Positions 2,792 through 8,474 of a stretch of 64,000 bases of DNA are shown here, in pieces. How positions within the stretch are numbered: position 1 is the stretch's first letter; each line of letters opens with the position of its first letter. Origin of the DNA: Candidatus Pantoea soli (lineage in GTDB: Bacteria; Pseudomonadota; Gammaproteobacteria; Enterobacterales; Enterobacteriaceae). The notes under the pieces were generated by a model that was given only the letters and a program-made list of their open reading frames with translations, ran no database searches and was not told the origin of the DNA. The stretch spans positions 1,426,001 to 1,490,000 of the forward strand of contig NZ_CP032702.1 of NCBI RefSeq assembly GCF_007833795.1, written 5' to 3'. Both the position numbers and the translations under genes were made by a program.

Positions 2792-3514
2792 ATGACAACC
2801 GATAATTATTTCGTCTGGCGAGGCGAAACTGAAAAACAATTTCAGGCGCTGACGGAAGTGATGCAGTTGAAATCGCTCTTACAGCATCAGATTGAAGCGC
2901 TGGGATTTGATGCCTTCGCCTTTCTGGTCCAGCATCCGGTGCCTTTTACCCGGCCACGCATTTTTTTGTTCAGTACCTATCCGTCAGGCTGGGTCAAACG
3001 GTACGAAAGCCAGAATTATTACGCCGTTGATCCGGTGCTGGTGCGCTGCCAGCAGCCGGGACGCGGCGTTGACTGGAACGCCGAGCTGTTCGCAGAAGCG
3101 GGTAATTTGTGGGCAGAAGCCAACGCTGCTGGTTTAATGAGCGGCTTTTCTTGTTCTGCGATGGCATCAAATCGTGCCATTGGTATATTATCTATATCAT
3201 CGCCACATCCCAGTCAGACCCGGCACAAACGTATTCAGCTGGAAGTGCAATTGCATTTTCTGGCGGAGCTCAGTTTGCGCGTTCTGGAACGGCTGAATGA
3301 TGGTTCGATGGTGGTTTTATCTAAAGATTTTAGCCAGCGCGAGCTGGAAATACTGAAATGGACGGCAGAAGGGAAAACCTCTGCGGAAATTTCGCTTATC
3401 CTGGCCATATCAGAGCATACGGTGAATTTTCACCAGAAAAATATGCAAAAGCGTTTTAATGTTTCCAATAAAACGCAGATAGCCTGCTATGCAGCAGCAA
3501 TCGGCCTGATTTAG
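2792..3514 (+). CDS. sdiA: LuxR-family quorum-sensing regulator SdiA
   Basis: A 240-residue transcription factor with an N-terminal autoinducer-binding domain (about 1-170) and a C-terminal LuxR helix-turn-helix (about 175-240). Strong family marks are HPVPFTRPRIF, the AHL-pocket residues W and Y in WVKRYESQNYYAVDPVL, and a C-terminus (LKWTAEGKTSAEISLILAIS, TVNFHQKNMQKRFNV, YAAAIGLI) almost the same as E. coli SdiA. SdiA senses acyl-homoserine lactones and alters transcription, in E. coli including uvrY. E. coli and Salmonella SdiA are 'solo' receptors with no synthase. Here a LuxI-type synthase follows 121 bases downstream in the same direction, so this receptor probably has a cognate signal. 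The ATG at 2792 has only a weak ribosome site (CAGGG). Confidence 0.95.
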   Translation: MTTDNYFVWRGETEKQFQALTEVMQLKSLLQHQIEALGFDAFAFLVQHPVPFTRPRIFLFSTYPSGWVKRYESQNYYAVDPVLVRCQQPGRGVDWNAELFAEAGNLWAEANAAGLMSGFSCSAMASNRAIGILSISSPHPSQTRHKRIQLEVQLHFLAELSLRVLERLNDGSMVVLSKDFSQRELEILKWTAEGKTSAEISLILAISEHTVNFHQKNMQKRFNVSNKTQIACYAAAIGLI

Positions 3515-3523
3515 CGAAATAGC

Positions 3524-3543
3524 AACTACTACTTTTGGTAGTT
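3524..3543. promoter_or_regulatory. lux-box-like 20-bp dyad upstream of the AHL synthase gene
   Basis: The sequence AACTACTACTTTTGGTAGTT has matching 6-base ends (AACTAC/GTAGTT) and the 20-bp length and layout of LuxR-family operators. It starts 9 bases after the sdiA stop and lies about 92 bases before the synthase ATG. A further half-site, AACTACC, occurs near 3563. The likely role, inferred, is SdiA control of the synthase. Confidence 0.6.
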
Positions 3544-3635
3544 TCTGCTCCGCCGACAGTTAACTACCCTGCGCCGGGAAATCCGCCAGGCTGGCGCTAA
3601 TTAAATCATTGCAAACATGAGGATGTCAGGGGCGC

Positions 3636-4250
3636 ATGATGAAAATAATTCAAACACAGCTAAAGGATATGCCGTCCTCACTGTTGGCCGAATTAGGCAC
3701 TTATCGTTACAGCGTTTTTGCGCGCGGGGAAGGCTGGTCTATTCCGCCGCGTCTGAGTACGCCAGGACAGGAGTACGATCGTTACGATCGCTCTGATGTC
3801 ACCTGGCTGATTGCATGGACTGCCCGCAAAGGTATCTGCGGCTGTGCACGTCTGCTGCCGTGGCATGAACCGGAAGTCCCGGAAGGCATGGTGCTGCCGT
3901 TTGATCAGGATAAAGTCTGGGAGATGTCGCGCTACTCCGCGCGGCTGGAAGTGGATGCCGAACTGCCGCTGAATATTTTGTGGCACTCGGTGCAGCTGGC
4001 AGAGCTGAGCGGCATGGAGTATCTGATCAGTTCCGCTACGCCAATGCTGGAAAAAATGTTTGCGCAGCATCAGGTGGTCTATGAGCCGCTGTCGCCAGGA
4101 CTGATTCAGTCTGAAGATAACCTGTTTGCTATCCGTATTCCGGTGCATCAGCCTGCGCTGGCGGAGAAATACCGCGGCACGCGCCGCTTCAGTCCGGAAG
4201 AGGTGCTGCCTTCGCTGGGTGTGATGGTTAACTGGCAGTCACATAACTGA
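3636..4250 (+). CDS. LuxI-family acyl-homoserine-lactone synthase
   Basis: A 204-residue autoinducer synthase, which makes an N-acyl-homoserine lactone from S-adenosylmethionine and an acyl-ACP. Family-invariant residues are visible in order: R24, F28 and W34 in YRYSVFARGEGW, D48 and D51 in EYDRYD, R72 in GCARLLP, and E96/R99 in VWEMSRYSA. The length is normal for the family (about 190-220). The ATG at 3636 is followed by a second ATG; an AGGGG ribosome site lies just upstream. The gene is in the sdiA orientation and preceded by a lux-box-like dyad. Ancestral pairing of sdiA with an ExpI/PhzI-like synthase has been proposed for Erwinia/Pantoea relatives; this locus fits that idea. Acyl-chain specificity cannot be read from the sequence. 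Confidence 0.92.
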   Translation: MMKIIQTQLKDMPSSLLAELGTYRYSVFARGEGWSIPPRLSTPGQEYDRYDRSDVTWLIAWTARKGICGCARLLPWHEPEVPEGMVLPFDQDKVWEMSRYSARLEVDAELPLNILWHSVQLAELSGMEYLISSATPMLEKMFAQHQVVYEPLSPGLIQSEDNLFAIRIPVHQPALAEKYRGTRRFSPEEVLPSLGVMVNWQSHN

Positions 4251-4252
4251 CA

Positions 4253-4299
4253 CCCCGCGCCGGGCGCGCGGGGGAACCGCTTACTGACGATAGGCGGTT
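4253..4299. terminator. Hairpins between the convergent synthase gene and yecF
   Basis: A GC-only hairpin (CCCCGCG, 7-base loop, CGCGGGG; 4253-4273) sits directly after the synthase stop. A second stem (AACCGC 4275-4280 with GCGGTT 4294-4299, followed by TTAAT) overlaps the end of yecF. No clean T-run follows the first, so factor-independent termination is only likely. Confidence 0.4.
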
Positions 4300-4508
4300 T
4301 TAATCTGACGAATGGTATTGCTGAACACCTCAGCCTGCGGTTTGTCTGCCAGTGCGTTCTGCACGTAGCGCTCCATGTTAATGATTACCTTGCCGGCGTC
4401 GGCCTGGCCCATGCCTTTGAGAATCAGGGTGACCATCATTTTCAGGCAGGCGACTTCATCTGCCAGGGCCTGGGTATCACGCGACGTTACAAAGTCTTCA
4501 TCACTCAT
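4281..4508 (-). CDS. yecF: YecF-like small protein (DUF2594)
   Basis: A 75-residue, mainly helical cytoplasmic protein. The start at 4508 was chosen because the translation MSDEDFVTSRDTQALADEV and the C-terminus (MGQADAGKVIINMER, IRQIKTAYRQ) match E. coli YecF, and because GGAGAC lies at ribosome-site distance; the longer upstream frame has no support. yecF lies between sdiA and uvrY in E. coli as well, so position supports identity. Its function is unknown. Confidence 0.9.
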   Translation of the reverse strand: MSDEDFVTSRDTQALADEVACLKMMVTLILKGMGQADAGKVIINMERYVQNALADKPQAEVFSNTIRQIKTAYRQ

Positions 4509-4930: not shown

Positions 4931-5590
4931 TTGATCAGCCTGCTTCTTGTTGATGACCATGAACTGGTACGCGCCGGTATTCGTCGCATACTGGAAGATA
5001 TGAAGGGACTGACGATTGCCGGGGAAGTGGCCTGTGGTGAAGATGCGGTGAAATGGTGCCGTAGCAACCCGGTGGATGTGGTGCTGATGGACATGAATAT
5101 GCCCGGTATCGGCGGTCTGGAAGCCACACGCAAAATTGTGCGCTACAACCCGGACATCCGCATCATCATGCTGACCATCCACACCGAGAATCCGCTGCCG
5201 GCAAAAGTGATGCAGGCAGGGGCAGCCGGTTACCTCAGTAAAGGCGCCGCCCCGCAGGAAGTGGTCAGCGCTATACGCTCAGTGCATGCGGGCCAGCGTT
5301 ACATCGCTTCCGACATTGCGCAGCAGATGGCGCTAAGCCAGATTGAACCCCAGAAAGCCGAATCGCCCTTCAGCTGTTTGTCGGAAAGGGAATTGCAGAT
5401 TATGCTGATGATCACCCGGGGACAAAAGGTGACGGAAATTTCCGAGCAGCTCAATCTCAGTCCTAAAACCGTTAACAGCTATCGCTATCGCATGTTCAGC
5501 AAGCTGAATATCAGTGGTGACGTAGAGTTAACGCATCTGGCCATTCGCCATGGCCTGTTCAATGCGGAGCCGTTAATCAGTAGTGAGTGA
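4931..5590 (+). CDS. uvrY: Response regulator UvrY (BarA partner)
   Basis: A 219-residue NarL/FixJ-type response regulator: receiver domain about 1-120 with the acidic pocket D8/D9 and phosphoacceptor D54 in [10 protein letters not shown], then a LuxR-type helix-turn-helix ([29 protein letters not shown]). It is the partner of sensor kinase BarA and activates the CsrB/C RNAs. The start is a TTG at 4931 with CGGAG at good spacing; the reading [16 protein letters not shown] fits the family N-terminus, so a weak start codon is likely real. It overlaps uvrC by 8 bases, so the two are co-transcribed, as in E. coli. Confidence 0.96.
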
Positions 5591-8184: not shown

Positions 8185-8260
<76 letters not shown>

Positions 8261-8303
8261 GTTCAGGTAATGCGTTTATAACGGGTTACCACCTCAGAAT
8301 TAC

Positions 8304-8377
8304 GGCGCGTTGGCAGAGTGGCCATGCAACGGATTGCAAATCCGTCTACCTCGGTTCGACTCCGGGACGCGCCTCCA
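8304..8377 (+). tRNA. cysT: tRNA-Cys (GCA)
   Basis: A 74-base tRNA with encoded CCA. Acceptor stem GGCGCGT/ACGCGCC, anticodon stem-loop GGATTGCAAATCC with GCA, T-loop GTTCGACTC. Second in the three-tRNA cluster. Confidence 0.97.
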
Positions 8378-8388
8378 GTTTACACCCT

Positions 8389-8474
8389 GCCCGGGTGGTG
8401 AAATCGGTAGACACAAGGGATTTAAAATCCCTCGGCTTATGGTCGTGCGGGTTCAAGTCCCGCCCCGGGCACCA
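8389..8474 (+). tRNA. leuZ: tRNA-Leu (TAA)
   Basis: An 86-base class II tRNA with a long variable arm (CGGCTTATGGTCG) and encoded CCA. Acceptor stem GCCCGGG/CCCGGGC; anticodon stem-loop GGGATTTAAAATCCC with anticodon TAA. Third in the cluster, matching E. coli leuZ. Confidence 0.96.

Follow-up and report, generated by a model that had tools for sequence, protein, structure and literature searches.

SdiA is a model receptor for the signals of other bacteria. In a locus of Candidatus Pantoea soli, sdiA is accompanied by a gene for a LuxI-type synthase of acyl-homoserine lactones (AHLs). The locus lies in the window analyzed here, a stretch of 64,000 nucleotides (contig NZ_CP032702.1, positions 1,426,001 to 1,490,000, forward strand). 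The initial annotation of the window had placed an intact synthase gene behind sdiA in the same direction, and the two open reading frames were indeed found at those positions and on that strand: sdiA (alias expR or phzR; 2792..3514, + strand), encoding an AHL-binding LuxR-type activator of 240 amino acids, and, after a gap of 121 bp, the gene of a 204-amino-acid synthase of the PhzI/ExpI family (3636..4250, + strand). Such pairing is already known: PMC3474713 and the review PMC12086679 describe sdiA-synthase pairs in Pantoea and Erwinia. It is probable that the locus encodes a working, positively autoregulated quorum-sensing pair, because strong purifying selection acts on the synthase and 97 of 99 loci with intact SdiA have a box of the RhlR kind in the spacer; the claim of a working pair, made earlier from the window's sequence, is thus likely to be right. 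As far as the literature was searched, the features that look new are the box and its link to the presence of SdiA, the asymmetry of constraint between the two proteins, and the existence of synthases without the receptor.

The identity of SdiA follows from its open reading frame, its Pfam domains (Autoind_bind, 107.1 bits; GerE, 71.3 bits) and the receptor tree. Orthologues of SdiA/ExpR/PhzR are defined as LuxR-type genes upstream of sirA/uvrY (PMC3474713), which is the position of sdiA in the window. The synthase was recognized by its Pfam match (Autoind_synth, PF00765; 28.4 bits against a cut-off of 24, confined to residues 14-118), its residues and its fold, which is that of AHL synthases. 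Among its named genome relatives, the best are those of Pantoea wallisii (98%) and P. dispersa (97%), the window's own record possibly being left out. The source genome (4.63 Mb, 5 contigs) contains a single PF00765 match, a single match to the window's own synthase and a single PF03472 match, and the pair is the sole AHL system found in it. PF00765 can overlook the PhzI-type family, as in G061, G185 and G286, where only an EsaI type was recovered.

Comparison of 108 synthases revealed that R24, W34, D51, R72, S98 and R99 are kept in all of them and F28, D48 and E96 in 107, which bears out the earlier description of an intact enzyme with its key residues. These residues are what we take to be the catalytic and S-adenosylmethionine (SAM)-binding set of LuxI proteins. 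The synthase is under strong purifying selection, and it is closer than SdiA to the window's copy in 98 of 98 loci (mean identities of 81.6% and 65.9%). Mean nonsynonymous divergence (dN) divided by mean synonymous divergence (dS) gives 0.027 in the synthase as against 0.146 in SdiA. Of the 1,378 pairs among 53 loci of the Pantoea type, the 129 with dS of 0.15-1.0 in both genes were used for this. Mean protein distances over 4,186 pairs of 92 loci are 0.214 and 0.390, respectively. As a control, ten EsaI/EsaR pairs were taken from ten of 18 genomes (L148, L149 and L150, two long-branch and one receptor-less, were excluded); EsaI was ahead of EsaR in only one of 45 comparisons (51.8% vs 57.9%). 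In five Rhl-type pairs of Pseudomonas, RhlI was ahead of RhlR in 8 of 10 comparisons, by a margin of 1-6 points.

The spacer was analyzed in 109 synthase loci, one per genome, comprising 99 with intact SdiA, six without a SdiA match and four with truncated or partly matched SdiA; some loci are near-identical, and the 99 spacers represent 94 distinct sequences. In the window, motif comparison revealed a rhl/lux-type box, CTACTACTTTTGGTAG, a CT-N12-AG palindrome and predicted SdiA binding site (3526..3541, strand-neutral). Of the 99 loci whose SdiA is intact, 97 have such a palindrome in the spacer, where it begins 106-114 bp before the start of the synthase, and 96 of the 99 spacers have the strict form CTRCYA-N4-TRGYAG. 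At the six loci without SdiA (five with an intact synthase and L126, a degraded symbiont copy), no CT-N12-AG box, loose or strict, occurs at that place; L018 and L175 carry weak palindromes elsewhere, at -340 and -85. The four loci outside the 99 in which SdiA is truncated or matched only in part are L089, L204, L206 and L208, and three of them have the box. Positions 1, 2 and 4 and their partners show no variation, and pair 3/14 is A-T in 83, G-C in 11 and mismatched in 3 of 97 boxes; thus, the arms co-vary as a dimeric protein would need. According to PMC2018727, the motif conserved among RhlR sites is CT(N12)AG.

Spacer alignment also points to a predicted -10 element, TACCCT (3565..3570, + strand), which is present in 89 of 99 spacers at exactly 23 bp from the box in all 89; a longer block, TTGTCTACCCT, is present in 87 of 99, the window's version being TTAACTACCCT. 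If TACCCT is read as a -10 element, the box centre would be located about 31 bp upstream of it, which would fit the usual place of a lux box near -42.5. In the box-less L189 and L018, TATTCT, nearer to the -10 consensus, stands at the site of TACCCT (two cases only), as if these promoters had been freed from SdiA dependence. The presence of the box in 97 of 99 loci vs 0 of 6, the co-variation of its arms and the -10-like element 23 bp behind it make it very probable that SdiA activates the synthase via this box. No published description of the spacer box was found in titles and abstracts, a scope that left most subscription journals outside.

Judging from family, residues and fold, the synthase would make an AHL by acylating the homoserine moiety of SAM. 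The position of the box suggests that SdiA, having bound this signal, would bind the CT-N12-AG site right after its own stop codon and activate the synthase promoter, closing an autoinduction loop.

Regarding the distribution of the pair, a search through 391 genomes sampled from the GTDB family revealed relatives of the synthase in 30, of which 20 are strong (59-100% identity) and 10 are weak N-terminal matches from other LuxI proteins, whose genes are close to a distant luxR homologue. The adjacency is not due to chance, since yecF is present at all 20 strong loci and sdiA at 16. Synthase matches were found in 58 of 60 genomes of the window's genus (one of them degraded), in 36 of 37 of the genus of G114 (taken as Erwinia) and in 8 of 8 of that of G125 (taken as Mixta); the three genomes of these genera without a match (G428, G438 and G474) also lack SdiA. 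SdiA was detected at E 1e-30 or better in 130 of the 391 genomes. Subtraction of the 16 with a synthase and of seven weak matches to other LuxR proteins leaves 107 solo-sdiA genomes, all of them without a synthase match. In the 39 of these loci that were read, spanning 33 genera, sdiA and yecF are separated by 41-92 bp, and no synthase remnant at E below 10 was found beside sdiA. The strict box is absent from the 150 bp after the sdiA stop in 39 of 39; four have some CT-N12-AG palindrome there at the threshold used for paired loci, none of them strict (an earlier scan of these loci had used a stiffer threshold). Two side observations concern single genomes: G166, taken as Izhakiella australiensis, has seven AHL-receptor-domain matches (one with an internal stop) and three synthase matches, and the reduced genome of the type-B symbiont of Plautia stali (L126/L282) retains a decaying synthase and mere fragments resembling sdiA.

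Whether the pair is old was addressed with trees. In the receptor tree (53 proteins), SdiA is a single clade (100/99) of 13 paired and 16 solo proteins, within which the paired (99/96) and the solo (83/62) proteins are sister groups near RhlR. The synthase tree (58 proteins), in which bootstrapping had not quite settled, unites the PhzI family in one clade (100/100) whose stem measures 2.27 changes per column, and 12 of 13 EsaI-labelled proteins form a separate clade (100/100), the thirteenth, L150, standing alone on a long branch. The PhzI family groups with RhlI in the best tree, with support of 56/0; in the approximately unbiased (AU) test, neither a grouping with the EsaI types (p 0.435) nor one with the Budvicia group (p 0.227) was rejected. 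Over 92 loci, the distances of the synthase and SdiA correlate (Spearman 0.84; synthase-UvrY 0.64, synthase-YecF 0.76, SdiA-YecF 0.80), and vertical co-inheritance within the Pantoea-Erwinia line is therefore well supported; these correlated distances make it most likely that the pair was inherited down this line. The suggestion in the initial annotation that an ancestral pairing has been kept holds in part: SdiA forms one clade, the distances correlate and the related pairs are those known from the literature on Pantoea and Erwinia, but the nearest kin of the synthase is left open by the 56/0 grouping. Clustering with EsaI/EanI types, which had been named there as evidence to the contrary, is not seen in the best tree, but the AU test leaves room for it. 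The synthase is probably SdiA's former partner, which has been lost from E. coli and Salmonella; the ancestral pair would have been rhlR/rhlI-like, and the ancestor of the solo-sdiA Enterobacteriaceae would likely have lost its synthase.

The synthase is also found in the opposite situation. Five genomes lack both SdiA and the box but still encode an intact synthase, namely those taken as Paramixta manurensis (L012), Erwinia endophytica (L018), an Enterobacterales metagenome-assembled genome (L020) and Erwinia sp. OLFS4 (L021; G030), and G461 (L175). Genome-wide, the family search gave no SdiA match in the hosts of L012, L018, L020 and L021, and the lone PF03472 match of G461 is of the EsaR type. 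Since L018 and L175 are sisters on the synthase tree (97/93), SdiA was likely lost four separate times. These receptor-less synthases are the mirror image of solo SdiA. All five genomes have an EsaR-type receptor, and four have its EsaI partner, which is missing in G030 (L151). This proves little because EsaR types are common in genomes with paired SdiA as well. In G030, a partnerless EsaR-type receptor thus coexists with a SdiA-less PhzI type as the only synthase found, two widowed halves of different pairs.

On the published record, we regard the signal of the enzyme as unassigned. Sabag-Daigle and Ahmer 2012 (PMC3474713) assign 3-oxo-C6 to ExpI and PhzI on the strength of Venturi 2004, for E. 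amylovora, and of Morohoshi 2007, for P. ananatis, and the available text of PMC6749038 identifies the latter work as one on EanI/EanR, a different synthase system. The published assignment needs to be rechecked because the Pantoea paper cited for it concerns EanI. The subject of Venturi 2004 is said to be the AHLs of E. amylovora. P. agglomerans NBRC 102470 holds both a PagI-type pair, so labelled for its likeness to L149, and an sdiA-locus pair. A pagI mutant of P. agglomerans 9Rz4 is defective in AHL production, according to the part of PMC10364316 that was accessible; if 9Rz4 too has an sdiA-locus pair, the product of that synthase would escape the biosensors used. The authors of a study on E. 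pyrifoliae proposed an unknown signal in the consulted portion of PMC2827408, and phzI mutants of two Pantoea strains show phenotypes, as stated in partially accessible reports. Part of the signal question may already be answered by Sibanda 2016, in which two LuxI/R homologues of P. ananatis LMG 2665 were reportedly studied.

Several observations weigh against a working SdiA-synthase pair. The window's SdiA reaches 280.8 bits over residues 1-240 on the SdiA equivalog model NF007561, below the cut-off of 350, and it belongs to the orthologous group only, outside the named model. The synthase is highly diverged, as seen from the restricted Pfam match and the long stem, so its product is uncertain, and its deep origin is not settled by the tree data. 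The box is missing from L019 and L189 (P. agglomerans NBRC 102470), where SdiA is intact. E. pyrifoliae, which has such a pair in its genome, triggered neither of two AHL biosensors, according to the accessible text of PMC2827408. Finally, the persistence of the synthase without SdiA in five genomes may indicate a role besides SdiA.

The last point leads to the possibility, which we regard as unlikely, that the main receiver of the signal is another AHL receptor, such as an EsaR type, or neighbouring cells, SdiA being a dispensable autoregulator. The excess conservation of the synthase over SdiA in all 98 loci would agree with this, particularly as EsaI and RhlI show no such excess or a small one, as would the EsaR types in all five SdiA-less genomes, that of G030 lacking EsaI. 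However, EsaR types are common in paired genomes, no second PF03472 receptor turned up in three of the 18 genomes searched, the source genome among them, the presence of the box follows that of SdiA, and an enzyme may be more constrained than its receptor for other causes. Somewhat more doubtful still is the proposal that the synthase was gained beside an existing solo sdiA in the ancestor of Erwiniaceae, so that there was no old pair to lose: the unsettled kinship and very long stem of the synthase and the lack of a remnant in the 39 solo loci would be expected from it, but RhlR, kin of SdiA, stands in the same tandem order with RhlI in L283, the spacer box is of the RhlR kind, and the synthase groups with RhlI in the best tree, if with support of 56/0. 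That the synthase is a remnant or makes nothing is very improbable and largely refuted already. A weak Pfam score and the negative biosensor test of E. pyrifoliae could be read in this way, but the promoter box is conserved, the phzI mutants of the two Pantoea strains have phenotypes, and decay is ruled out by the very low dN/dS and the invariant catalytic residues. A further reading, which we regard as unlikely, is a highly diverged Pantoea-Erwinia synthase family with a signal outside the usual short-chain AHLs that matters more to its hosts than SdiA, which would serve autoinduction only; several lineages that dropped SdiA and the box would have kept the enzyme, perhaps read by EsaR types or neighbours. 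If this is true, the pair has been dismantled both ways, leaving a receiver without a sender in E. coli and its relatives and a sender without a receiver in the SdiA-less genomes.

For the working, autoregulated pair, the box offers a direct test of autoinduction, and the receptor-less synthases provide a natural comparison for who else listens. Genomes of the source type are a clean background for finding the SdiA signal because the PhzI-type synthase is the only AHL synthase found there.

A SdiA regulon beyond the synthase is not claimed. CTACY-N6-RGTAG has 8 sites in the source genome vs 67 for the reversed control pattern, namely the spacer box and seven identical copies, which we take to be in 16S ribosomal RNA genes. 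Sites of CTRCYA-N4-TRGYAG (control in brackets) number 2 (20) in the source genome, 10 (12) in G391, 5 (21) in G234 and 2 (16) in G141. All 11 inspected non-synthase sites overlap an open frame of at least 90 codons, stop to stop, four G391 sites lying outside this inspection. Real LuxR sites are often looser than a strict palindrome. In G391 (L305), an open frame that reads by eye as flagellin-like has a box of the spacer type some 160 bp in front of it; the strict sites of the source genome include no such box.

The gene order continues behind the tandem sdiA and synthase genes with yecF (DUF2594; 4281..4508, - strand), a conserved neighbour identified by a profile match, uvrY (sirA/gacA response regulator; 4931..5590, + strand; NCBIfam 435.7 bits, cut-off 280), the context marker of sdiA, and a gene that its sequence, read without a search, presumably marks as uvrC. 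A leader motif, ACATGAGGATGT (3615..3626, + strand), directly 5' of the synthase start, has a GGATGT core shared with relatives and resembles a CsrA site; uvrY, of the Csr pathway, sits two genes downstream of it. CsrA control was considered and is kept as a mere remark, the core being present within the last 40 bases of just 52 of 99 spacers. A cluster of transfer RNA genes (tRNA-Gly, tRNA-Cys and tRNA-Leu) follows pgsA at 8185-8474 of the window.

Compared with known systems, the pair is a further member of the group of ExpR/ExpI of Erwinia and PhzR/PhzI of Pantoea (PMC3474713), with which it shares the sdiA-uvrY locus and the kinds of genes; the accessible text and references of that paper do not mention the box, the SdiA-less synthases or the difference in constraint. 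EsaI/EsaR, EanI/EanR and PagI/PagR are likewise AHL pairs and are present in many of the same genomes, but they occupy other loci, where the genes of synthase and receptor lie on opposite strands and face each other, and the EsaI types form a synthase clade of their own (100/100). Unlike in the window's pair, EsaR is better conserved than EsaI in 44 of 45 comparisons. The solo SdiA known from Escherichia, Salmonella and relatives is an orthologous receptor at the same uvrY locus; it differs in having neither a synthase nor a box of the window's sequence in 39 loci and in the short sdiA-yecF gap of 41-92 bp. Kinship with RhlR is apparent from the matches of the window's SdiA to the E. coli SdiA structure (1.6e-62), native RhlR (2.8e-51) and designed RhlR variants (up to 5.2e-68), vs 2.1e-28 for a QscR-type repressor. 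RhlR/RhlI of Pseudomonas shares with the window's pair the receptor-then-synthase tandem, as seen in Pseudomonas sp. LP_7_YM (L283), and the CT-N12-AG box, whereas the window's synthase is only 29% identical to that of L283 and its kinship with RhlI in the tree has support of 56/0.
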